Origin: a virus
Virus record (IMG/VR): IMGVR_UViG_3300030333_004130
Coordinates: 1 to 44,161 of that record
Direction: 5' to 3' (one strand)
DNA length: 44,161 nucleotides
In this document: positions 12,470 to 33,401 of the stretch, piece by piece
Layout: each line of letters begins with the position of its first letter
How positions within the stretch are numbered: the first letter of the stretch is position 1
The notes under the pieces: generated by a model
What the model was told of the DNA's origin: nothing
Seen by the model: the letters and a program-made list of their open reading frames with translations, nothing else
Database searches by the model: none
Translations under genes and position numbers: made by a program

Positions 12470-12687
12470 CAACAAAAAAGAAAACAGAAACGAAAAAGAC
12501 CGAAAAGAAGGCAGACGAGAAGGATGCTCGTATTGAGGAACTTGAACAAATGCTTGTTCAGAACAATACGAACATTCAGACTCTAGTGAACACAGCAAAC
12601 AACTACATTGCGCTGTGTCAACACTACGAGCAGACCATCAACATCTTGACTGGTCGAATTCAAGAACTGACAAGAAAGAATGAATAA
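12466..12687 (+). CDS. Lys-rich coiled-coil protein, 73 aa
   Basis: The first 22 residues are mostly Lys, Thr and Glu; then a heptad pattern (IEELEQMLVQNNTNIQTLV...INILTGRIQEL) indicates a coiled coil. It may be a small scaffold or oligomer. Coupled to the gene before it by ATGA and stops just before the ubiquitin-like gene. Confidence 0.68.
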   Translation: MTTKKKTETKKTEKKADEKDARIEELEQMLVQNNTNIQTLVNTANNYIALCQHYEQTINILTGRIQELTRKNE

Positions 12688-12703: not shown

Positions 12704-12904
12704 ATGAAATTGATAATTGCAAATGAAACAGGACATACAGAAATGGAAGTGAACTATGTGTCTGCCATCGAGCAGATAAATGACCACCCTACACATTGGG
12801 TGTTCATTGATGGGGATATGGTTCTAAGGGAGAATATCCCTGATGTCAATTGGGAAACCGTTGACGAAGTTCGCCTACAACAAGCAGTAGTTGGCGGATG
12901 CTAG
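12704..12904 (+). CDS. Ubiquitin/ThiS-like protein ending Gly-Gly-Cys, 66 aa
   Basis: Candidate beta-grasp modifier. It opens with strand MKLIIANE and a second strand (TEMEV). Next come a short helix, strands around WVFIDGDMVL, and a terminal DEVRLQQAVVGGC. That ending closely resembles the MoaD/ThiS/ubiquitin-type end (D-E-V-x-L-x-x-A-V-x-G-G) with one extra residue, Cys66, after Gly64-Gly65. Start at 12704 has a strong GGAGG site. In known systems an E1-like enzyme adenylates the Gly-Gly end and a JAMM protease trims or removes the tag. Both enzyme types are encoded downstream (17494-18099, 19607-20161). Fold assignment is by eye; a chance GG end is possible. Confidence 0.5.
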   Translation: MKLIIANETGHTEMEVNYVSAIEQINDHPTHWVFIDGDMVLRENIPDVNWETVDEVRLQQAVVGGC

Positions 12905-12934
12905 AGTAACACGCAAAACAAGTCTTAGCAGTAG

Positions 12935-12982
12935 TTAGATTGACTGCCTAGTGGGTGCAAAGCCCACTTCAAATCTAAGGAG
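12935..12982 (+). promoter_or_regulatory. Nested stem-loop in the leader of the RNR gene
   Basis: TTAGATT (12935-12941) pairs with AATCTAA (12972-12978). Within it AGTGGG (12950-12955) pairs with CCCACT (12963-12968), extended by a T-G pair, around the loop GCAAA. The outer stem runs into the ribosome-binding site AGGAG (12978-12982) of the ribonucleotide reductase, so folding could limit translation. It is too small for a standard cobalamin riboswitch. Confidence 0.5.
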
Positions 12983-12990
12983 ATGAGAAT

Positions 12991-14880
12991 ATGGAAATAC
13001 AACAAGAAATACTATCAGATATCACTGTGCATATGAAATACGCCAAGTGGAAAGAAGCAGAGCAGCGAAAGGAAACTTGGGAAGAGATATGTAACAGAAA
13101 TAAACAAATGCACCTTGATTCCATTAAGAAGAGCGACTTAGACAAAAAGCATAAGGAAATTCTAAGCAATCAGATTCACAACACATATGATAATTATGTG
13201 ATACCTAAGAAGATATTACCTTCTATGAGGTCAATGCAATTTGCAGGAAAGCCAATTGAACTATCACCTAACCGTGTTTACAATTGTGCTTACATGCCCA
13301 TTGACCATTACCTGTCATTCTCAGAAGCAATGTTTCTATTGTTAGGAGGAACAGGTGTAGGCTACTCAGTCCAAAGACATCATGTGGACAAGTTGCCTGA
13401 GATTAGATTACCTAATCCAAAGAGAACTTACAGACATCTAGTTGCTGACTCGATTGAGGGTTGGGCTGATGCTGTGAAAGTGTTGTTTGAGTCTTACATT
13501 GGTAAGAGAGCAACAACAGTTAGATTCGATTATTCAGACATAAGGCCAAAGGGTAGTCCATTGAAGACTAGTGGTGGTAAAGCACCCGGCCCTCAACCTC
13601 TAAAGGAATGTCTAGTAAAGGTGGAGGGAATTCTCGCCAACAAGGACAATGGAGACAAACTAACTACATTAGAAGCACACGATATTGTATGTTATATTGC
13701 GGATGCAGTATTAGCAGGTGGTATTCGTAGAGCAGCACTAATCAGTTTATTCAGTGCTGATGACGATGACATGATAACATCGAAGTCAGGACACTTTTGG
13801 GAGAAGAATCCACAGAGAGCAAGAGCAAACAACTCAGTAGTTCTACTACGACACAGAATCAAGAGGGACTTCTTCAACAATCTATGGAAGAGAGTTCAAA
13901 ATTCAGGTTCAGGAGAACCGGGATTCTACTTCACGAATGACAAGGATTGGGGAACTAATCCCTGTTGTGAGATTGCACTTCGACCATATCAGTTCTGTAA
14001 CTTAACAGAAGTGAATGTGTCTGATGTGACTAATCAAGATGAATTGAATGCGAGAGTTGAACACGCTACTTTCTTGGGAACACTACAAGCATCTTACACC
14101 GACTTCCATTATTTGAGGGAAGTTTGGAAGAAAACTACACAGAAAGATGCCTTGCTTGGAGTATCCATGACAGGTATAGCGAGTGGAACTGTTCTCGATT
14201 TAGATATGGAGAAGGCTGCCGACATAGCAAGGGCTGCGAATACCCACTATGCAGTAGCATTGGGTATCAAGACAGCAGCGAGAATAACATGTGTGAAACC
14301 TGCTGGAACTACTAGTCTAGTTATGGGAACTTCATCAGGCATACATGCTTGGTGGTCTGAGTATTACATTAGGAGAATCAGAGTATTGAAGACAGAATCA
14401 ATCTACAACTATCTGATAACTAAGTTCCCTGATTTAGTAGAGGATGACTATCACAACCCTAATCAGGCTATTATCTCCATACCTCAGAAGACTCCTGCTG
14501 GAACTTCCATTACAAGAGAAGAGTCAGCATTGGAGATGCTTGAGAGAGTTAAGAGAGTATCAGTTGATTGGGTTCTGACAGGACATAACAGAGGAGTCAA
14601 TACTCACAATGTTTCAGCAACAGTTAACATTCGTGAAGATGAATGGGATGATGTTAGAAACTGGATGTGGAAGAATAGAGATTTCTATAATGGGTTATCT
14701 GTTCTACCATTTGATGGCGGTGTCTACAAACAAGCACCACATGAACCGATAAGCAAGAAACAATATGAGTCTATGTTGAAGTTACTTACTAGCATAGATT
14801 TAACAGAAGTGATTGAACTGGAAGACAACACCGATTTGCAAGGAGAACTTGCATGTGCTGGTGGGGTATGCGAAATATGA
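12991..14880 (+). CDS. nrdJ: Adenosylcobalamin-dependent (class II) ribonucleotide reductase, monomeric RTPR type, 629 aa
   Basis: Reduces ribonucleotides to deoxyribonucleotides for viral DNA synthesis, using adenosylcobalamin to make the active-site radical. Evidence: substrate/redox Cys99 (VYNCAYMP); loop LLGGTGVGYSVQ; the catalytic segment NPCCEI (residues 323-328) with the presumed radical Cys325 and Glu327; redox partner Cys336 in CNLTE; the late motif PAGTTSLVMGTSSGIH; and the C-terminal redox pair Cys622 and Cys627 (CAGGVC). Size and motifs fit the RTPR-like class II group. The NPCGEI Gly is replaced by Cys326. Start follows AAGGAG behind a stem-loop. RNR genes are common in lytic marine viruses. 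Confidence 0.92.
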   Translation: MEIQQEILSDITVHMKYAKWKEAEQRKETWEEICNRNKQMHLDSIKKSDLDKKHKEILSNQIHNTYDNYVIPKKILPSMRSMQFAGKPIELSPNRVYNCAYMPIDHYLSFSEAMFLLLGGTGVGYSVQRHHVDKLPEIRLPNPKRTYRHLVADSIEGWADAVKVLFESYIGKRATTVRFDYSDIRPKGSPLKTSGGKAPGPQPLKECLVKVEGILANKDNGDKLTTLEAHDIVCYIADAVLAGGIRRAALISLFSADDDDMITSKSGHFWEKNPQRARANNSVVLLRHRIKRDFFNNLWKRVQNSGSGEPGFYFTNDKDWGTNPCCEIALRPYQFCNLTEVNVSDVTNQDELNARVEHATFLGTLQASYTDFHYLREVWKKTTQKDALLGVSMTGIASGTVLDLDMEKAADIARAANTHYAVALGIKTAARITCVKPAGTTSLVMGTSSGIHAWWSEYYIRRIRVLKTESIYNYLITKFPDLVEDDYHNPNQAIISIPQKTPAGTSITREESALEMLERVKRVSVDWVLTGHNRGVNTHNVSATVNIREDEWDDVRNWMWKNRDFYNGLSVLPFDGGVYKQAPHEPISKKQYESMLKLLTSIDLTEVIELEDNTDLQGELACAGGVCEI

Positions 14881-15158
14881 ATAGGAAACAAATCCTAGCA
14901 ATTGAAAATGAAGTCATATCTAGTATGACTAATAATGGAGCAAAGGAAAGAATATCAAGAATGTATAAGCAAACTAAAGATAATGGTAGAAAGATGTCAT
15001 CTACCCAAATATTGAATGCTATTCAGTATTATATCCGAATGGGATATTCAAGTATCTCTAAGGATGAATTGTTTGACTTGTATAATTTGAAAATGTATAA
15101 TAAAAGAAATGGTGATGAAAATGAAGATGAAAATTATATTACCCAATATCAGAAGTGA
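14877..15158 (+). CDS. Unknown helical protein, 93 aa
   Basis: Start at 14877 (MNRKQILAIE) overlaps the RNR stop by ATGA. Basic, helical, with MSSTQILNAIQYYIRMGYSSISKDELFDLYNLK, possibly a small DNA-binding or dimerisation fold. The C-terminal codons (NGDENEDEN) come from the repetitive GATGAAAATGAAGATGAAAAT junction that supplies the start of the next gene. Confidence 0.65.
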   Translation: MNRKQILAIENEVISSMTNNGAKERISRMYKQTKDNGRKMSSTQILNAIQYYIRMGYSSISKDELFDLYNLKMYNKRNGDENEDENYITQYQK

Positions 15159-16350
15159 CTACCAAGCAGGTGAGATGCACTCTTCTTTTTTGGTGAAGAC
15201 CACAAATGATATGCTAAACAGTTGGGCAAGGACAAACCTAAATCATATGGGTGAAGTTATTTCTCGATGCAGAAGGACAGGAAATAGACACTATCACGAT
15301 GAGTATTACTGGAATCAAATTGCTGACACAATGCATAGGCTTTTCATGCATCTAGGTAGAACAGAATATGCTAAGTCAAGTGAGATGACATACATCACCT
15401 TCCGATATAAGGATGGAGATGCGACAATCATTCTTAGGAAGGATGGTAACAAGTATATCTTGAATGGTGTAAAGAAGAATCAGAAAGATGTTGCTATGGC
15501 TCTTGCTAAGATAATTGCATTTGGAGCGCAGAACCGAAGTTGTAGATTAATGAATCAATATATGGAAAGGAACATTCTCTATTCGGCTAACATTCTTCAT
15601 GCTTTAGAGAACCGAACACCATATTGGTTCTATGTGGATGGTAGAAAGACCAATGTTAAGATTAATACTAAGTTGATTGGTCAGGATGAAATAGCATTTG
15701 AGATATCTGAGAACATTTGGGCTTCGACTGATTTGAACAATGCTAACATATTCATTGATTGCTACAAGAATGGTGCTACTCGTTCTAAGAGATGGGCTAA
15801 CATTAGTCCTTCTAACCTGTGGTATAATTTGTTTGAAACACATCCTACTGAAGCAGAAATGAGTATGATGACAGCATGGCTTCTACAAAATAGAACGGAT
15901 GTCATCGTTGAGGAAAGAGCATTCGAGTTGCTTGAGAATATGGACAAGACATATGATGAGATTTCTCTTGTGAATGTTAAAAACCCTGTTTTCTCCCCTA
16001 ATGAATTGAAAGGGCTATCAGAAAAGTATGATTTTGGTCTTCTTGTTCATGGGAGTCTCGGTGATTGGTTGGTTTATCCTAATAGTAGGGCCGGAGGTTC
16101 TCAGAGATGCAGTGCAGTATTCTATGGCGATGACGGAAAGATAAATGGCCCATTCTGTATTGATGATGTCAACAGCAAGAATGTTACAGGAGACCAAATA
16201 GCAACAAGAGCAATGTTGTTGAAGAATGATAAAATGGCATTGCAGATGGTGTCTACATTGCGAGAGGTCAAGCCAACTAAATTTAGACTAAGTAAGAGGC
16301 TTCTCAACAGTGCAAAATATGAAGGTAAGCCAAATCTGAGAGGTGTATAG
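15121..16350 (+). CDS. Large unknown protein, 409 aa
   Basis: Start at 15121 (MKMKIILPNIRSDY) is chosen because GGTGATG precedes it at normal distance; ATGs at 15109 and 15115 are alternatives. An alpha/beta protein without Walker motifs, Cys clusters or membrane segments. It has many aromatic residues and a basic start of the domain (RCRRTGNRHYHDEYYW). It lies between RNR and TFB and ends one base before the TFB start region, so an early role is likely. No family recognised. Confidence 0.72.
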   Translation: MKMKIILPNIRSDYQAGEMHSSFLVKTTNDMLNSWARTNLNHMGEVISRCRRTGNRHYHDEYYWNQIADTMHRLFMHLGRTEYAKSSEMTYITFRYKDGDATIILRKDGNKYILNGVKKNQKDVAMALAKIIAFGAQNRSCRLMNQYMERNILYSANILHALENRTPYWFYVDGRKTNVKINTKLIGQDEIAFEISENIWASTDLNNANIFIDCYKNGATRSKRWANISPSNLWYNLFETHPTEAEMSMMTAWLLQNRTDVIVEERAFELLENMDKTYDEISLVNVKNPVFSPNELKGLSEKYDFGLLVHGSLGDWLVYPNSRAGGSQRCSAVFYGDDGKINGPFCIDDVNSKNVTGDQIATRAMLLKNDKMALQMVSTLREVKPTKFRLSKRLLNSAKYEGKPNLRGV

Positions 16351-16351
16351 T

Positions 16352-17254
16352 ATGGGCAGTTTATGTGCAGAATGTAAGTGTGATTCCTTCACATTTGATG
16401 ACCGTCTTGGTGAGAATGTCTGTGATGAATGTGGGCTTGTGCATGTGGTTAGACCGTTTGAGGAAACTGTAACGCCCCGAACAAGAAATGGTGATTTTAC
16501 CTATGAGAATACTAGGGAATTGGGTTCTATTATACTAGAAACTAAATCCAACCTCAAACTAAACCAAATGTTTAGAATGAAAAACCACAATACTTGGGCT
16601 AAGAAAGAATCTGACACAGACATACGAACAATGCGTCTGTGTATGATGATTCTTTCCCATTATTCTATGAAAAATAGAGAGCATGTTAATTCTTACTTAC
16701 GCTCACTAAATAGTGAGAGAGTGTTTCGTGGTATCTCTGTGGAAAACAGAGCAGCAGCGTTAACATACTACATTTTGAAGGAAGCGGGAATTACAGTTAG
16801 TCTTGCCAAACATAGTGAGATTTCAATGGTTGAAAGAAAGTATATCTCAAGGTATGTCAAGAGAATAGCAAAGCACTTTCGTAAAGCACATGTTCTATCT
16901 ACAATCAATTCACATGGGATTGCAGCAACCATCCTAGATAAATTAGAAGATGTTTCTCCTAATTATAGAATGAATACTCTGCGTATGATTGATTTCTTAG
17001 ATGACTACTGTAAATCAATAGATGTTAGATTCACAACAAACAGAATATGTGCCATGATATGGGCTGTATCTGTTATGGAGGATGAAAGACATCATACGCA
17101 AGAATTGATTCGTGAAGCATCAGGCAATTGTTCTGTCATTGGTATGAGAATAGCATTGAAGGAAATATGTGGGTGGTTTGATTTGACAAAGGCAGACTTG
17201 TTCAGCCTATCTGTATCCGATTTCATACACGGAGCATACCTAAAATGGGAGTGA
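16352..17254 (+). CDS. tfb: Transcription initiation factor B (TFIIB homologue), 300 aa
   Basis: Archaeal TFB bridges TATA-bound TBP and RNA polymerase. N-terminal zinc ribbon: Cys5-x2-Cys8 and Cys24-x2-Cys27 (LCAEC...VCDECGLV). A linker in the position of the B-finger follows, then two helical repeats (about 75-185 and 195-295) in place of the cyclin folds. Length equals cellular TFB. The finger lacks a clear match to the conserved cellular sequence, so the protein is diverged. Start at 16352 (ATG) rather than the GTG at 16343. A viral TFB may steer host polymerase to the window's uniform TATA promoters. Confidence 0.85.
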   Translation: MGSLCAECKCDSFTFDDRLGENVCDECGLVHVVRPFEETVTPRTRNGDFTYENTRELGSIILETKSNLKLNQMFRMKNHNTWAKKESDTDIRTMRLCMMILSHYSMKNREHVNSYLRSLNSERVFRGISVENRAAALTYYILKEAGITVSLAKHSEISMVERKYISRYVKRIAKHFRKAHVLSTINSHGIAATILDKLEDVSPNYRMNTLRMIDFLDDYCKSIDVRFTTNRICAMIWAVSVMEDERHHTQELIREASGNCSVIGMRIALKEICGWFDLTKADLFSLSVSDFIHGAYLKWE

Positions 17255-17258
17255 TAAA

Positions 17259-17513
17259 ATGGAAGATGTAATAGAAACTATGCAGAAAATGCAATACCAC
17301 TTCAGTATGTTTATTGAAGAGTATGAAAGACTACCACAGTTGAAGAATGTTGTTAGAAGAACTGTGCTAGAAGACGCAATCTCTGTTGTTGGAGCGACAA
17401 TGGATGGAATAACACATGAGATAATTGATGCATATCATCAATATCAACAAGAACAAATTAACAAATGGGAAATAATAGAATTGAGTGATGAAAATGAAAA
17501 TGAGAATGAATAG
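17259..17513 (+). CDS. Small helical acidic protein, 84 aa
   Basis: Starts after GGGAGTGATAAA. Predicted four-helix content, with an acidic tail DENENENE that is produced by the repetitive junction GATGAAAATGAAAATGAGAATGA. Overlaps the E1-like gene start. No family. Confidence 0.65.
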   Translation: MEDVIETMQKMQYHFSMFIEEYERLPQLKNVVRRTVLEDAISVVGATMDGITHEIIDAYHQYQQEQINKWEIIELSDENENENE

Positions 17514-18099
17514 AAATGTAATGATAATTGGAGCAGGTGGAATAGGTAGTTTTCTTACCTATTTCTTAGAGAGATTAGGATACCGGATAACTGTATTTGA
17601 TGAGGATAGTGTAGAGAAGAAAAATCTCACTTATCAAAACTACTTTGAATCCGATATCGGAGAGAAGAAAGTAGAATGCCTATCAGATAGAAACTACGGA
17701 ACAGTGGCTAAAGGAAGAGTAATAGATGAGCCATATCATGTTCTAACAGAGAAGCAACTACAAGGCTATGACTTAGTTATCTGTTGTGCAGACAACTTGG
17801 TAGTGAGGCGTTTATTATATCGGCAAGGGTTTGGTTCTGATGCCAAGATTAAGTGGTTAGATTTGAGAGCGCAAGGAAGAACTGCTGCTCTTATCTCTTA
17901 CATGATTGACCCTAATATGATGGATGCATTCCTAGCAGGGGAAGAAGGTTCTTTCTCTTGTCAAGCAGGAGAATGGGATGGAACTCCACAAGGAGTAGAT
18001 TGTATGAATATCGCTATTGCTGGAATTGCAACACAGTGGATTCAGAAATGGTTCAACAATAATGATGATGTTGTTGATAAAATGGTGTTGCAAGTATGA
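17494..18099 (+). CDS. E1/ThiF/MoeB-like adenylating enzyme, 201 aa
   Basis: Rossmann-type ATP-using enzyme that adenylates the C-terminus of ubiquitin-like or sulfur-carrier proteins. Evidence: GAGGIGS nucleotide loop (residues 13-19); acidic pair DED (36-38) with VEKKNLTYQ (N44), equivalent to the conserved D-x-D-x-V-x-x-x-N-L-x-x-Q; Lys59 in the DIGEKKV motif; VICCADN (Asp100); and WLDLRAQGR, typical of ThiF-like proteins. Possible thioester Cys: C97, C98, C156 or C170. Shorter than ThiF/MoeB (about 240-250), lacking a rhodanese domain and the four-Cys zinc site. Start 17494 chosen by the GTGATG site; 17485 and 17506 are alternatives. Confidence 0.82.
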   Translation: MKMRMNRNVMIIGAGGIGSFLTYFLERLGYRITVFDEDSVEKKNLTYQNYFESDIGEKKVECLSDRNYGTVAKGRVIDEPYHVLTEKQLQGYDLVICCADNLVVRRLLYRQGFGSDAKIKWLDLRAQGRTAALISYMIDPNMMDAFLAGEEGSFSCQAGEWDGTPQGVDCMNIAIAGIATQWIQKWFNNNDDVVDKMVLQV

Positions 18100-18254
18100 T
18101 ATGTAATTGCAAGCCTTGTGAGTGTCACTATCCACTACGCACATATGTAGGTAAGAAAACCACAGTCCCTCTAAAGGAGGCATTAGTTGTGTGTGGAAGA
18201 TGCAAGCAAGAGATAGAATGTAAACTATGTAGGAATGATGAAAATGAAATGTAG
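18096..18254 (+). CDS. Cys-rich micro-protein, 52 aa
   Basis: MICNCKPCECHYPL... with eight or more Cys, including CKPCEC, CGRC and CKLC, sufficient for two zinc sites. Its ATG overlaps the stop of the E1-like gene (ATGA), so it is co-translated with it and might bind it. No known family. Confidence 0.68.
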   Translation: MICNCKPCECHYPLRTYVGKKTTVPLKEALVVCGRCKQEIECKLCRNDENEM

Positions 18255-18327
18255 TAACTGTGGAATGGAAATAACAGAATTGAGAATTAAGACAGAAGAC
18301 TGTTGTAGATGGGTGGTGATGAGATGA
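18244..18327 (+). CDS. Zinc-knuckle micro-protein, 27 aa
   Basis: MKCSNCGMEITEL..., with CSNC and CC, enough for one zinc knuckle. It starts in the end of the previous gene and overlaps the next start by ATGA. Very short, so coding status is uncertain. Confidence 0.45.
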   Translation: MKCSNCGMEITELRIKTEDCCRWVVMR

Positions 18328-18554
18328 GAGCGAGTTCAAAGATACATGTTGAATATGAAGTATTGAAATACATAATGGATAGAATAGACCTATCTGAAAT
18401 AGAAGAAAGAATGTGTCCTTCAGGAGATAGTGTAGCAGAGAAGAGATTCAAGGATGGTGCTGATTCAGTATCAAACCTAGTGAACAATCTGATAGTTAGA
18501 AGACTACACAGATTACCGAAAACACATCCTGCCTACAAGGAGAAGGGAGAATGA
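18324..18554 (+). CDS. Unknown protein, 76 aa
   Basis: Start at 18324 (MRASSKIHVEYEVLKYIMDRID) after GGTGGTGATGAG. Helical, mixed charge, ends in a basic stretch (RRLHRLPKTHPAYKEKGE). Coupled to both neighbours. No motif. Confidence 0.65.
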   Translation: MRASSKIHVEYEVLKYIMDRIDLSEIEERMCPSGDSVAEKRFKDGADSVSNLVNNLIVRRLHRLPKTHPAYKEKGE

Positions 18555-18643
18555 ATCCTGACTATTATTGGTCTTTAATGCACAGATTAAATGCCGAAGT
18601 AAATGTTAGGCAATTGCGAAAACAATTAGGTGAAGAGGAATGA
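18551..18643 (+). CDS. Micro-protein, 30 aa
   Basis: MNPDYYWSLMHRLNAEVNVRQLRKQLGEEE, quoted in part only by its features: an aromatic start, then one amphipathic helix. ATGA overlaps at both ends favour translation. Confidence 0.5.
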   Translation: MNPDYYWSLMHRLNAEVNVRQLRKQLGEEE

Positions 18644-18903
18644 AGTATATTCATTTCACGATAGCAGATAAGGTTCTATGTGGGGCAGAAGAAGAACCAG
18701 TTCCTGAGCATTTGGCAGATACAAGAAGGCTGTGCAATGATTGCATTGATGTGATTTGGAAGGAACAGTATAGAAGGAATGTGCTACTCCGGTTGAAGAT
18801 AGACAGTAAAGAGGTAGAGAAGAAAAAGCAAGAAGTTGTGGTTGAAGAGCCTCGATTAGTTCCACCAAGACCAATCAAAAATCTTCGACATTATATGAGG
18901 TGA
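18640..18903 (+). CDS. Small protein with one Cys pair region, 87 aa
   Basis: MKYIHFTIADKVLCG..., with C14 and the pair CNDC near residue 32: a possible three-Cys metal site as in phage proteins of the 'LCG...(L)CxxC' type. C-terminal half is Lys/Glu/Val-rich and then proline-containing. Function unknown. Confidence 0.65.
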   Translation: MKYIHFTIADKVLCGAEEEPVPEHLADTRRLCNDCIDVIWKEQYRRNVLLRLKIDSKEVEKKKQEVVVEEPRLVPPRPIKNLRHYMR

Positions 18904-18907
18904 AAAA

Positions 18908-19114
18908 ATGGGAACAAGTTGGATAAAAAGGCACTCACATGAAGAGCCTGAAAGAATAAAGGCAGAGAAAAGAAGATATGAAGCATGGAAAAAAGAACAC
19001 AAGAGAAGATTTCCTACCCATGAAGACTTAATGAATCATATTAGGGCGAAGTATAATTGGCCTAAGTATAGCAAATATCAAAATAAATTAGGTGAAGAAG
19101 ATGAGCAGCAATGA
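18908..19114 (+). CDS. MGTSW protein, 68 aa, basic
   Basis: MGTSWIKRHSHEEPERIKAEKRRYEAWKK..., very basic and helical. Its N-terminus resembles the 47-aa protein at 5382-5525 in the leftward arm (MGTSWRKRNAHLKPRD), making the two likely paralogues. Possibly nucleic-acid binding. Confidence 0.68.
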   Translation: MGTSWIKRHSHEEPERIKAEKRRYEAWKKEHKRRFPTHEDLMNHIRAKYNWPKYSKYQNKLGEEDEQQ

Positions 19115-19346
19115 AGATGCAAATATAGATAATTTAACAGAAGAAGATATTGGGCAGATAATGACAGTAATATCCACTGATGGTTATTACCGACAAGCAG
19201 AGATTGTGAAGGTTGTATGTCCACATTGTCTTGAAGAGTTCTTGGGAACTAAGAGACATGCAGGTGGATTCATTGCAGGACACCGAGCGTTTCATGAGTT
19301 TGAGAACGAACAGGATATGAGAGTCACACAAATGGGAGGAACATAA
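19101..19346 (+). CDS. C2H2-like zinc-finger protein, 81 aa
   Basis: Start at 19101 (MSSNEDANID). CPHC near residue 39 with a following HAGG...GHRAFHEFE segment gives a Cys2His2-type finger (C-x2-C, then His in the helix). The acidic N-terminus (NLTEEDIGQIM) may be a second module. Overlaps its neighbour by 14 nt. Could be a DNA-binding regulator. Confidence 0.68.
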   Translation: MSSNEDANIDNLTEEDIGQIMTVISTDGYYRQAEIVKVVCPHCLEEFLGTKRHAGGFIAGHRAFHEFENEQDMRVTQMGGT

Positions 19347-19610
19347 ATGGAAATAGAAATGAAAGAATGTAGTATATGTGGTGGAAACATAGACATCCAC
19401 TATACAGAAGATGGAGAAGTATATTGGTCAGATGGTCATAATGCACAACCAGTTAACGATGGTAGATGTTGTGATGATTGTAATATGACAGTGGTAATGG
19501 TAGTCAGATTGAAAGACTATTTTATTCAACAAGATGGCAGCACAGACACAGAGGGACTGAACGAAGTTATTGGTGCATTGATACGAGCAAAGAAGCAGGT
19601 GAGTAAATGA
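19347..19610 (+). CDS. Phage-type zinc protein, 87 aa
   Basis: ECSICGGNID, then WSDGHNAQPVNDGRCCDDCN: a CxxCG...W-x-x-G-x-N-A-x-P-x-x-x-G-R-C-C-x-x-C-N pattern frequent in small phage proteins, four or five Cys for zinc. The tail helix follows. Role in those phages is not known to me. Sits directly before and overlaps the JAMM protease gene. Confidence 0.7.
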   Translation: MEIEMKECSICGGNIDIHYTEDGEVYWSDGHNAQPVNDGRCCDDCNMTVVMVVRLKDYFIQQDGSTDTEGLNEVIGALIRAKKQVSK

Positions 19611-20161
19611 ATAAAACAGATGAAACAGAATATGAAAATAATGGAATTAAAGGATTAGAAATAAAAGATGAGAATTGGATTGAGGATATCAAGACTGTAT
19701 TCAATAATATACAGTTTCAATACCCCTTTCCTGACCCACAAACTGAGGCTTTCTTCACAGTGATTTGGAACAAGTCTCTTGAGGCATTTGACTCCCCAAG
19801 AGAAGTTCAGGTAATTGTTGATGCGAAGGATGATTTGTATGTTAGTGTAGGGACATTTGGCTTTGTGAGTTTCAAAGACCAAGAGGAACAACTAGGTGGC
19901 ATGAAGTTGCCATTGAAGTGTTGGATACACACACATCCATTCGGTCAGGCTTTCTTCAGTGGAACAGATTGGTCAACTATCAAGGCATGGAAAGGAATGA
20001 TGGAAAGTGCAACTGTTCTTGGAGATAACCAATTCATATCATATGATTGCAATTCTGAGATAGCAAAGCAAGTTCAGTATGGCATTTACCAACAACAGCC
20101 TGTTGAGAAACCTGAGTGGGTTAAGGCAGCAGAAGATGCATTGGAAGGCGAAGAAGAATGA
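19607..20161 (+). CDS. JAB/JAMM metalloprotease, deubiquitinase-like, 184 aa
   Basis: A zinc isopeptidase of the JAB1/MPN/Mov34 type, known to cleave ubiquitin-like tags or process their C-termini. The complete JAMM signature is present: His108-x-His110-(x7)-Ser118-(x2)-Asp121 (HTHPFGQAFFSGTD). A catalytic Glu is expected in the strand before it; Glu48 or Glu59 is a candidate. The N-terminal 40 residues are extra. There is no NlpC/P60 domain, so it does not look like the phage tail-assembly (lambda K) form. With the E1-like and Ub-like genes it suggests a tagging pathway. Acidic C-terminus (EEDALEGEEE-like). Confidence 0.82.
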   Translation: MNKTDETEYENNGIKGLEIKDENWIEDIKTVFNNIQFQYPFPDPQTEAFFTVIWNKSLEAFDSPREVQVIVDAKDDLYVSVGTFGFVSFKDQEEQLGGMKLPLKCWIHTHPFGQAFFSGTDWSTIKAWKGMMESATVLGDNQFISYDCNSEIAKQVQYGIYQQQPVEKPEWVKAAEDALEGEEE

Positions 20162-30175: not shown

Positions 30176-31837
30176 ATGATAATTGCAAATACAGAAGATG
30201 GAATACTACTTCGTTGGAGGGATGAAGAAGAAAGGAAAGAAAGAAGAATACCTTTCTCTGAATTCTGTCCTTATTTTTTCATTGAGAGTAGTAATATTGT
30301 TCTCAAGGATAAGATAGTTCTGTATGAGGGTCGTCAAAAACCATTCTTTGTGAACCTATTTTATGAAGAGGGTGATTGGTTTAATCTAGATGGACAAAAA
30401 CTGTTGAAGGTTACTTGGACTCCTTATCGCACTCGTTATACTAAGTCAGGTAAGATGATTAGTAAGATTCGCACTGATTTCCATAACAGAGGAATAACAA
30501 CCTACGAAGCAGATGTAAGACATCACTATCGCTATGCAGTTGATGAGATTACAGAGATGCCACAATATCGGATGCGTAAGTGGTATTGGGATATGGAATG
30601 GATGCAAGGTGGCGACCATGATGGTGCTATTACTTGTATTGTTATCTATGACAACTATGATGACGAGTATTACACATTGACATGGAAGCCTGATTCTGAA
30701 GAGACTGAAAGAACAGTTCTTGAAAGATTCATTTTGATGTTGACAGAAAAAGACCCTGACATGCTTATCTCTTGGTTTGGGTGGAAGTTCGATTTGCCTA
30801 AGTTGATTGAGAGATTAGACGCAAATGATATTGACCCAAGACTACTATCTCCTATTCATGAATTGACAGGAGTTGAATGGTCAATATCACAGGGATGTGT
30901 AATCTTGAAGAACAAACAGATTGAGAACTATTCCCCTATTGCACAACCAATCAAGGGTAGAATATGTGTGCCGCTTGATTTAGCATTTGAGAGGCAATGG
31001 AATGATGCTCAAAAAGGAACACTACCTTCACTATCATTAGACTATGTATCAGAATATGTTCTTGGTGAAAAGAAGTTAGTCAGTGAGAAGTTTCCTGATA
31101 AGAACGAGTTCTTCAGGAGAGGATGGTTAGAAGATAGCGAAACATATCTTGACTATGCTTTGAAAGATGTAGAGTTAATCAAAAGGATAGACGAAGAGAA
31201 CCACACAACAGAGGCAATCATCTCTTTACAACTTTTACTAAAAGCACCCTTTGATGCTTGCTTCTATGCAAGTAACATGGGTGGCATATATTTCATGCGT
31301 AATGCCTCATGGAAAGCCCCTACGGGCAGGAAAGGGGATAGGGTAGACTATGATGGGGCAATGGTGTATGACCCTCTCAGTGAAGGCACAAATGGATTGC
31401 ATTTGGGTGTTGCAGCCTTTGATTTTGCAGGTCTATATCCTGCAATGATAATTGCCCGAAACATTTCGTGGGAAACTAAATCAGATGATATTACAGAATT
31501 TGCAGTTAACATCAGAACGCCAAAAGATTTCTCTGATGTTCAAACAACAGATATGAAATATTATCGGACTGATGAATTAGGATTGCTACCAAAATCTGTT
31601 CTTGAACTAAAAGAACTACGAAATGAATACAAAATGAAAATGAAGGAAAGTAAAAGTAAAAGTGAATATGTTAAGTGGGACAATAACCAATTGGCTGTCA
31701 AGAGACTAATGGCTTCTTTCTATGGAATCATTGCGTTTCAAGGATTCGGTTGGGCTGATGTTGATTTGGCTGCTAGTATAACTGCTAGTGCTAGAGAAGC
31801 AATTAGAGCCGCAGCATTCAAGGTAAGGGAGTTATAA
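30176..31837 (+). CDS. polB: Family B DNA polymerase, N-terminal part (exonuclease and motifs A, B), 553 aa
   Basis: First piece of a split replicative polymerase. Exo I: WDMEW (DxE). Exo II: GWKFDLPKL. Exo III: YALKDVELI (Y-x3-D). Motif A: FDFAGLYPAMII (DFxxLYP). Motif B: KRLMASFYG, with Ala where Asn is usual (K-x-x-x-N-S-x-Y-G). It ends shortly after the motif-B helix (AFKVREL), exactly where the polymerase would continue into motif C, which is found at 32520-33401. The stop and the next ATG overlap in TAATG. Start 30176 follows GGTGATATT. Confidence 0.9.
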   Translation: MIIANTEDGILLRWRDEEERKERRIPFSEFCPYFFIESSNIVLKDKIVLYEGRQKPFFVNLFYEEGDWFNLDGQKLLKVTWTPYRTRYTKSGKMISKIRTDFHNRGITTYEADVRHHYRYAVDEITEMPQYRMRKWYWDMEWMQGGDHDGAITCIVIYDNYDDEYYTLTWKPDSEETERTVLERFILMLTEKDPDMLISWFGWKFDLPKLIERLDANDIDPRLLSPIHELTGVEWSISQGCVILKNKQIENYSPIAQPIKGRICVPLDLAFERQWNDAQKGTLPSLSLDYVSEYVLGEKKLVSEKFPDKNEFFRRGWLEDSETYLDYALKDVELIKRIDEENHTTEAIISLQLLLKAPFDACFYASNMGGIYFMRNASWKAPTGRKGDRVDYDGAMVYDPLSEGTNGLHLGVAAFDFAGLYPAMIIARNISWETKSDDITEFAVNIRTPKDFSDVQTTDMKYYRTDELGLLPKSVLELKELRNEYKMKMKESKSKSEYVKWDNNQLAVKRLMASFYGIIAFQGFGWADVDLAASITASAREAIRAAAFKVREL

Positions 31838-32214
31838 TGATGAAGTTGGTTAATTTAACGAATCATGATATTACTTTCACAAAGGTAGTTGATGGTGAAC
31901 AGAGAAAAGCCGTGTTGAAACCTAGCAAAATGTGGGCTAGAATGAATCAACTATCTAACACTAAGGTAGGTGAAGTAACTGTGACTGGCTCTACACCCTC
32001 TACAACCCTAGAAGTGCCGATATTTGAGAGAAGTGAATTCTATACTAATGTTAAATGGGGAAACAGAATGTTTGGGTTGCCCGCTCCTAAAAAAGATACA
32101 TACTATATTGTTAGCAGGATTGTCGCTTATCACAACTTAGATAGAAAGGATTTACTCATACCTGAAACTAACTCAAGTAAAAATACACAGTATCTGTATA
32201 GGATGGTGATGTAA
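31837..32214 (+). CDS. Phage-type small protein inserted in PolB, 125 aa
   Basis: MKLVNLTNHDITFTKV..., a beta-rich protein like small phage proteins that begin N-L-T-x-H-x-I and end with a Y-(I/V)-V-S-R...R-K-D-L-L-x-P segment (YYIVSRIVAYHNLDRKDLLIPE). Function in those phages is unknown. First of three small genes lying between the two PolB parts, coupled to both neighbours. Confidence 0.7.
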   Translation: MMKLVNLTNHDITFTKVVDGEQRKAVLKPSKMWARMNQLSNTKVGEVTVTGSTPSTTLEVPIFERSEFYTNVKWGNRMFGLPAPKKDTYYIVSRIVAYHNLDRKDLLIPETNSSKNTQYLYRMVM

Positions 32215-32215
32215 T

Positions 32216-32410
32216 ATGCCAATAAAAAGTGCAAGTATTGATTTTTCAAATGCTGAAGAAGAAAAAACAGAGTCTGAATTAAGAAAACAGGCTCTAAGTC
32301 AGATTTACAAAGACGGTAGCCGTATTATGTTGATTACATACAAGGTTTTCTTGGGTTTTATCTTCTGTTACGGTTTAATTTCACTATTGCAGGATGTGAA
32401 TCTAATATGA
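32216..32410 (+). CDS. Single-pass membrane protein inserted in PolB, 64 aa
   Basis: Acidic N-terminal half, one hydrophobic segment (MLITYKVFLGFIFCYGLISLL) near 39-59. Overlaps the next gene by ATGA. Function unknown. Confidence 0.62.
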   Translation: MPIKSASIDFSNAEEEKTESELRKQALSQIYKDGSRIMLITYKVFLGFIFCYGLISLLQDVNLI

Positions 32411-32523
32411 ACTTAGAAGAATGGTCACAAGAGCGATTTGCAACTCTTGCCCTACTTAGAACAGTCTTCGGACTAGTAAAAGTGGTTATAGCACTAATAA
32501 TTGCACAGGAGTTGTTAACATGA
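32407..32523 (+). CDS. Membrane micro-protein inserted in PolB, 38 aa
   Basis: MNLEEWSQERF... with a hydrophobic stretch (FGLVKVVIALIIAQELL). ATGA overlaps at both ends (32407-32410, 32520-32523) show a compact operon with the PolB C-terminal gene. Function unknown. Confidence 0.58.
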   Translation: MNLEEWSQERFATLALLRTVFGLVKVVIALIIAQELLT

Positions 32524-33401
32524 AGGTAGTTTACGGACATACAGACTCGATTTATGTTGATATTGAGGATAATAGCATTGAAACTGCTGAAAAGACTCTA
32601 AAAATACTTAATGAGCATGTTAGAACCATTTTTCCTAATGTTATGGGACTAAAAGAACACCCTGTAACTCTAGAATTTGAGAAATACTTCAGAACTTTAG
32701 GTGTCGGAGCAACCAAAAACAGAAATGCAGGTCTAATTACTTGGAAAGATGGTGAATTTCTCGATGAAGAGGAGTTTGTGATGACAGGATTCACTGCCAA
32801 GCGTGTTTCTAACACTCAATTGGCTAAAGATGTGCAATTAACTGTGCTAAATATGTGGGTAGAAAACAAATCAGAAGAAACTATTGTAAATTACTTGAAT
32901 GAGAAGTATAATTCTGTAATTAATGGAGAAATACCATTAGAAGACATCCTAAAAAGAAGTAGATACAGAGAAGAAAGATTTCAAGTGGTGTGCAATAACT
33001 GTCGTCAAACTAATTCACTATTTGATTTAATGGAGAACCCTTGTTGTGGTGCGCCAAAGTCCTTCAAGACTGTTGGTGGTAAAAGACCGACTATTGGTGC
33101 AGGAGTTGAAGGAGTATTATTCAGTAGGAGTATTGGATATCAACCAATAGATGATTCATATCTATTTCTTAGAATAAAAAATTGTAATCAAACCTACATT
33201 AATCCAGTAATAGATAAGGCGGTAACTCCTAACTATGTATCCTTTTTAATGAAAGAAGACTTTGTAGATTTTTCACCCGACTGGCCTCACTATGCTGAAT
33301 CTGTTGTAAAGAAAGCAGAACCTGTATTCAGAGCAATGAATTGGGATTTGAAGCAGATAACAAAGGATAGATATCAAAGGGAGTTGGATGAATGGTTCTA
33401 A
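32520..33401 (+). CDS. polB: Family B DNA polymerase, C-terminal part (motif C and thumb), 293 aa
   Basis: Begins MKVVYGHTDSIYVD, the polymerase motif C. The usual first Asp of YGDTDS is His, the second, metal-binding Asp is kept. The thumb includes a Cys knuckle (CNNC and CC, about residues 159-180), unusual for PolB. It ends with YQRELDEWF, a good PIP box (Q-x-x-L-x-x-W-F) for the clamp. With 30176-31837 it gives about 845 residues, a normal PolB length, so the split looks functional rather than decayed. Confidence 0.88.
   Translation: MKVVYGHTDSIYVDIEDNSIETAEKTLKILNEHVRTIFPNVMGLKEHPVTLEFEKYFRTLGVGATKNRNAGLITWKDGEFLDEEEFVMTGFTAKRVSNTQLAKDVQLTVLNMWVENKSEETIVNYLNEKYNSVINGEIPLEDILKRSRYREERFQVVCNNCRQTNSLFDLMENPCCGAPKSFKTVGGKRPTIGAGVEGVLFSRSIGYQPIDDSYLFLRIKNCNQTYINPVIDKAVTPNYVSFLMKEDFVDFSPDWPHYAESVVKKAEPVFRAMNWDLKQITKDRYQRELDEWF

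Follow-up and report, generated by a model that had tools for sequence, protein, structure and literature searches.

A 44,161-nucleotide stretch of viral DNA (positions 1 to 44,161 of the IMG/VR virus record IMGVR_UViG_3300030333_004130; hereafter, the window) encodes a small ubiquitin-like modifier precursor (UbL), an E1/ThiF-like activating enzyme (E1) and a JAMM metalloprotease (JAMM), and these three proteins probably work as one ubiquitin-like conjugation and deconjugation system in which the JAMM trims the modifier precursor. The three genes are real and complete. Sequences and structural models show the predicted folds together with intact catalytic residues, a Gly-Gly end of the modifier that is invariant, a fixed gene set and order, and shared descent with genes of the host lineage, which lie side by side or are fused. 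A preliminary description of the window had proposed a tagging or sulfur-transfer system made up of these genes, which indeed lie on the same strand where it had placed them, and the fold predictions, hidden Markov model (HMM) searches and co-occurrence data support that interpretation. The window is probably part of a tailed virus whose host belongs to Marine Group II archaea (Poseidoniales).

The modifier, the activating enzyme and the protease

The C-terminus of the UbL reads AVVGGC, the ThiS/MoaD-like ending that had been recognised at the outset. A 74-amino-acid (aa) alternative open reading frame (ORF) begins at position 12680; the relatives agree with the start at 12704. The AlphaFold2 (AF2) model of the UbL (pLDDT 87.9) has the strand and helix order of a beta-grasp fold, as had been expected, and in an open Foldseek search of the PDB its best 50 matches were ubiquitin-family and MoaD structures only. 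The UbL by itself matched no family in the profile library, its profile gave chance matches only against PDB sequences, and weak ThiS matches were obtained for 8 of 39 UbL relatives (best, 8e-4). The Gly-Gly end is invariant in the 39-row alignment and is present in all 70 distinct viral homologues, so that loss of Gly-Gly in the face of persisting E1 and JAMM genes, the outcome that the preliminary description had set against its own proposal, was seen in 0/70. After it come 0-3 residues of no fixed identity (Y in 17, C in 9, none in 7, SL in 6, also Q, NC and others; n = 70). The terminal Cys, which had been singled out as a special feature, is therefore not conserved, and the presumably trimmed tail is variable.

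The E1 matches Pfam ThiF (PF00899) with an E-value of 4e-16 and 59.3 bits, well above the cut-off of 28.1, in agreement with its earlier assignment, and its relatives in the PDB include MoeB, UBA5, Cap2 and E1. The motifs GxGGIG, CCxDN, DLRxxGR and SCQ are kept in 80/80 distinct viral E1s, Lys59 is conserved, and Cys156 (in SFSCQ) is invariant in virus and host. Neither a rhodanese domain nor a CxxC zinc site was found in the E1. Note that the E1 was not assigned to any narrower class, since it scored 33.9 bits against a cut-off of 450 for the UbaA equivalog (NF047750), 48.4 bits against 144.75 for PRTRC ThiF (TIGR03736), and far under the cut-offs for the ThiF and MoeB equivalogs.

The JAMM has the complete HxH-x7-S-x2-D signature ascribed to it, and Glu66 is invariant in the alignments besides His108, His110, Ser118 and Asp121; HTHPx6SxxD is kept in 90/90 distinct viral JAMMs. 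Pfam Prok-JAB was matched by 37/37 members of the JAMM family (best, 1.9e-5), and the HMM assignment thus holds at family level. Foldseek searches with the AF2 model (pLDDT 89.7) gave the Rpn11 homologue of Caldiarchaeum (best), Sst2/AMSH and PfJAMM1 as top matches. Among named phages, neither the UbL nor the JAMM has relatives at the limits used, and the E1 matches distant crAss-like and jumbo phage E1s only.

Table 1. Coordinates of the UbL, E1 and JAMM genes and of two neighbouring genes in the window.
Feature	Position	Strand	Description
UbL	12704..12904	+	66-aa ubiquitin-like modifier precursor; predicted beta-grasp; ends VVGG-C
V4	15109..16350	+	413 aa; C-terminal ~100 aa distantly homologous to host ORF345; invariant Cys350
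TFB	16343..17254	+	divergent transcription initiation factor B; TFIIB zinc ribbon match, sub-threshold
E1	17494..18099	+	ThiF/E1-type adenylating enzyme, 201 aa; Pfam ThiF 4e-16
JAMM	19607..20161	+	JAB/MPN+ metalloprotease, 184 aa; Glu66, His108, His110, Ser118, Asp121

Co-occurrence and gene order in related viruses

Relatives were drawn from IMG/VR with each of UbL, E1 and JAMM as queries and, independently, with the DNA polymerase. The records are metagenome fragments, and the counts of viral loci partly overlap because the same contig could be retrieved by more than one query. One copy each of UbL, E1 and JAMM was present in 39/39 searched viral records of 63-103 kb, all of which had originally been retrieved via one or other of these three proteins. 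As for the polymerase-selected records, E1 was found in 15 of 21, and the remaining six end short of the expected E1 place; 13 of these 15 E1 carriers have the whole set, and the other two end before UbL. Apparent gaps were thus explained by contig or locus ends, and true absence of UbL or E1 was rejected. The co-occurrence that had been called for is therefore complete in the large records and in those polymerase-selected records that are not cut off by the contig end.

Gene order and strand are constant, with UbL before E1 in 110/110 and E1 before JAMM in 125/125 cases. In 12 of 125 viral loci the E1 and JAMM genes overlap, by 4 bases in several cases, or directly adjoin each other, and the three genes are under purifying selection (dN/dS 0.04-0.22). 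Two contigs binned in a 'Maricaulis' metagenome-assembled genome (L222 and L223) carry viral E1 and JAMM in a virus-like gene order. They were considered as bacterial carriers and rejected, because in gene content they match the viruses; the bin is probably mixed.

Homologues in Poseidoniales

Species genomes were scanned with the E1 profile, and relatives were found in Poseidoniales assemblies. The chromosomes concerned carry homologues of UbL, E1 and JAMM, adjacent or fused; the host E1 and JAMM genes can overlap by four bases with the UbL gene adjacent, and one E1-JAMM copy lies on a 2.06-Mb host contig. The host set is flanked by metabolic genes, read from their translations as enolase, aminotransferase and ribonucleotide reductase. 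By hand count, a dedicated E1 (E at most 1e-40) is present in about 69 of 146 Poseidoniales genomes, and many others match only a longer MoeB/UbaA-like protein.

E1-JAMM fusions were found in three Poseidoniales loci, L365 (4196-5404), L366 and L369, and a UbL-UbL-E1 fusion in L370 (3789-5063). Furthermore, four loci, L308, L309 (994-1707), L310 and L313 (874-1701), encode tandem precursors of two or three UbLs in which every unit ends in Gly-Gly. The fusions of UbL to E1 and of E1 to JAMM are strong evidence of joint action of the three, and the tandem units imply cutting after Gly-Gly. The preliminary description had regarded the linkage of its non-adjacent genes as a functional inference; this doubt is answered, and the linkage proves stronger than had been claimed, because the E1 and JAMM genes touch or overlap in some viruses and the genes are fused or form operons in the likely hosts.

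The viral and host UbL profiles match each other with an E-value of 4e-18. The viral and host systems thus have a common ancestry. In the E1 tree, the viral sequences form one clade (support 85/94) and the Poseidoniales sequences another (support 97/99); the two group together with a pair of Methanoperedens sequences and are set apart from MoeB-like and phage E1s. This pattern agrees with an ancient exchange better than with a series of recent captures. In Methanoperedens (L230, L238), the related E1 (L238: 9902-10489) directly follows a 712-aa ORF of no known family. A small ORF, ORF78 (about 78 aa; L228: 11160-11396 and relatives), comes after the JAMM gene at many Poseidoniales loci.

V4 and TFB as further shared parts

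Two further genes, V4 and TFB, are common to the viral and host neighbourhoods, and the set is therefore larger than three genes; the system, which had been described as minimal, is probably not minimal. V4 is present in 121 of 126 viral loci having E1, and matched no known family in profile searches. Its host counterpart, ORF345, precedes UbL in several host operons. The ORF345 profile retrieves 80 viral ORFs with V4 members best, the best host matches of the V4 profile are ORF345 proteins, and hhalign aligns the two over about 100 columns including the invariant Cys (prob 93.7, E 1.8e-7). V4 carries a GPICID...GDQ motif that resembles an E2 active-site region, and the Cys of this motif is invariant. 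Comparison of its profile with three E2s and phage proteins, however, gave a prob below 1%, like decoys, and the assignment of V4 as an E2 was rejected for now; V4 could possibly be an accessory or transfer factor. A separate host protein, ORF231, lies between host UbL and E1 (L237: 5149-5844; L239: 6717-7559), and contains an ICIH...GDH stretch similar to the motif in the C-terminal parts of ORF345 and V4. The profile comparison of ORF231 with ORF345/V4 was not significant, and profile searches found no viral homologues of ORF231 or ORF78.

In 113 of 125 viral loci, no more than 500 bp separate E1 from the TFB gene upstream of it, and in 41 the two genes overlap or abut. TFB-like genes also neighbour the system at six host loci, five recognised with the viral TFB profile and one (L365) via the zinc ribbon, and only about two TFB genes were recognised elsewhere in such host genomes. 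Note that some of the six loci are mutually related and do not represent six separate occurrences, and no significance value is attached to the count. Near a host TFB gene, a UbL-like protein (L367: 7982-8233) ends in KIVAGRV, without Gly-Gly.

The virus and the genomic setting of the system

The virus is probably a magrovirus, as judged from its gene content and its homology to host genes. Magroviruses and their hosts are reported to be abundant in surface oceans. The relatives of the window are marine contigs of up to 103 kb with PolB, which were compared with the features that define Magrovirales, namely a tailed virus with PolB, 90-110 kb, two opposed modules and a Poseidoniales host; haloarchaeal tailed viruses are among the nearest named relatives of the PolB. 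The window has opposed gene modules, with strand switches near 8 and 40 kb; the opposed modules of magroviruses described in PMC12999244 served for comparison. The viral UbL, E1 and JAMM genes sit among replication and transcription genes, beside the ribonucleotide reductase (RNR) and TFB genes and outside the structural module, several of the replication genes having been named from translations alone.

Two other regions of the window deserve mention. PolB (30176-33401) is encoded by two separate ORFs (30176-31837 and 32520-33401), between which small ORFs are located. The two parts adjoin each other in five relatives, and in others as much as about 1.3 kb comes between them; an intein, an intron or a split gene are possible explanations. 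PolB motif C is YGHTDS in 68/68 relatives, the usual form being YGDTDS. The minus strand (40418-44101) encodes a 1227-aa protein with repeated GIGT(T/S)SP motifs that is possibly a tail-fibre protein.

Proposed mechanism and alternative readings

In the proposed mechanism, the JAMM would cleave the UbL precursor behind its Gly-Gly and so take off the 0-3 residues that follow, as the Caldiarchaeum JAMM trims its ubiquitin precursor exactly after Gly-Gly (PMC6043591). The E1 would then adenylate the exposed Gly-Gly, and would probably hold the UbL as a thioester on Cys156. Target proteins would receive the UbL either without an intermediary, in the manner of archaeal SAMPylation, or with V4 as a helper, and the JAMM may also strip the tag from proteins. 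A rhodanese-free E1 fused to or beside a JAB protein is a mark of conjugation-type operons in the Iyer 2006 survey (PMC1779556), and this is what was found here, as the viral E1 is without rhodanese and overlaps or abuts the JAMM in some loci, and the host E1 is fused to it.

As for the targets, transcription initiation factors would be the most attractive guess, because the TFB gene is a neighbour of the set both in the virus and in some hosts. A precedent comes from Haloferax, in which breakdown of the transcription factor TBP2 is controlled by SAMP2 together with its E1 and a JAMM (PMC4895103). A specialised ubiquitin-like system, coupled to a divergent TFB of its own, might be common to Poseidoniales and their viruses, and the virus copy would tag and turn over transcription initiation factors (host TBP/TFB or viral TFB) and switch transcription from host to virus, although we hold this extended scenario to be rather doubtful.

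Several points weigh against a conjugation system. Sulfur-transfer operons contain the same three parts. No E2 or E3 was identified, just as no candidate had been seen in the preliminary description, and the E1-only mechanism derived there is not established. The JAMM alone falls under the Pfam Prok-JAB cut-off (E 0.0036), the Foldseek scores of the UbL are modest (best E 4.2e-3, TM about 0.5), and UbL and E1 are 2.4-8.3 kb apart in most viral loci. In addition, the Arg of MoeB NLQRQ is replaced by Tyr in the window E1 (NLTYQ), as it is almost always in the 80 distinct viral E1s (KNLTYQ and similar), and by His in hosts. The adenylation chemistry may therefore differ, and the claim that all adenylation motifs are present, which stands for GxGGIG, CCxDN and Lys59, was slightly too strong.

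As the main alternative, the three proteins could form a sulfur carrier system, in which the JAMM trims the UbL, the E1 activates it, and a tRNA, nucleotide or cofactor receives sulfur from a Gly-Gly thiocarboxylate; the siderophore pathways for thioquinolobactin (Qbs) and PDTC (Pdt) operate in this manner. In the Qbs pathway, QbsE bears residues after its Gly-Gly that are removed by a JAMM. Bacterial ThiS/JAB/E1 operons with the same three parts make thiocarboxylates (PMC1779556), CysH has been reported in some magroviruses (PMC10160649), and the weak ThiS matches among UbL relatives would suit such a role. We nevertheless regard a sulfur carrier as unlikely: the E1 is without rhodanese, no PP-loop (SGGxDS) protein was found in three near-complete viral relatives, no thiamin, molybdopterin or cysteine synthase gene was recognised within the window, and the tandem poly-UbLs and E1-JAMM fusions of the hosts suit conjugation better.

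Given the homology of the viral and host parts, the virus might also block host tagging, perhaps a defence, by using its UbL as a decoy or its JAMM to strip host UbL. The many JAMMs of Borgs have been suggested to counter host SAMP tagging (PMC12660748), and bacterial ubiquitin-like (Ubl) systems are reported to act in phage defence (PMC10097602). A complete E1, needless for a decoy or a stripper, is however kept with its motifs intact in every distinct viral sequence (80/80), which makes a decoy or stripping role less likely, and the host genes lie among housekeeping genes with no visible defence island; such interference is, in our judgement, quite improbable. Even less can be said for a part in virion assembly, in which UbL and JAMM would help build the tail as TAPI and TAPK of lambdoid phages may, and which we consider highly improbable: Ubl (TAPI) and JAB (TAPK) proteins are indeed paired in lambdoid and T1-like tail gene clusters (PMC1779556), but the viral genes lie beside RNR and TFB and not in the structural module, the lambda cluster has no described E1, and the extra C-terminal domain of TAPI is missing from the UbL.

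Comparison with known systems and significance

The conjugation system proposed here resembles the SAMP/UbaA/JAMM system of Haloferax volcanii, which has a Ubl ending in Gly-Gly, a single MoeB/ThiF-type E1, a JAMM desampylase and no known E2 or E3. It differs in that the viral E1 scores far under the UbaA cut-off and that the set is encoded by a virus, linked, and fused in hosts. The ubiquitin operon of Caldiarchaeum (CsUb, E1, E2, RING, CsRpn11) provides the best Foldseek match of the viral JAMM, but includes an E2 and a RING E3, neither of which was found in the viral system. The host version is similar to bacterial polyUbl/JAB-E1 operons (row 6e, PMC1779556) in having tandem UbLs, an E1 that adjoins JAB or is fused to it, and an operon protein with CxxC that is possibly metal-binding; unlike these operons, it is archaeal and no E2-like domain was recognised in it, and the virus has a single UbL and the distantly related V4. 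In the thioquinolobactin and PDTC modules (QbsCDE, PdtFGH), Ubl, JAB and E1 are likewise encoded in one operon, but the E1 there includes a rhodanese domain, and a carboxylate-AMP ligase belongs to the operon.

Among extrachromosomal elements of archaea, Borgs also carry Ubl-system genes, namely multicopy JAMM deSAMPylases and one SAMP (PMC12660748); the E1 is reported from the host genome there, however, and there is no linked set. In the phage crAss001, the JAB and E1 proteins Gp77 and Gp76 (L372: 4259-6657) are encoded adjacently near replication genes, as in the archaeal viruses, whereas the crAss-like E1s form a separate clade and no separate UbL ending in Gly-Gly was identified there. 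The N-terminal region of the crAss001 E1 contains TAIVGG, which resembles the magrovirus UbL end, a similarity that could reflect a vestigial UbL or be coincidental. In a Xanthomonas jumbo phage, the gene before E1 encodes an 892-aa protein (L373: 3241-5919) whose HPH...GSLCLG resembles an E2 active site; Pfam did not recognise this protein.

In the open-access literature searched, which did not include the primary magrovirus papers of 2017 and 2025, we found no published description of an archaeal virus group that has the complete set of modifier, E1 and JAMM among its core traits, nor of a poly-UbL operon in Marine Group II. The Poseidoniales system with its fusions and poly-UbLs deserves study in its own right. 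The host fusions and tandem precursors are ready test substrates, and the shared TFB is a concrete first candidate for a target. As the same genes lie in the chromosomes of its likely hosts, the virus seems to enter the cell with a protein-tagging system of its own, and, if it does tag proteins with its own modifier, this would be a self-contained viral counterpart of the ubiquitin system.

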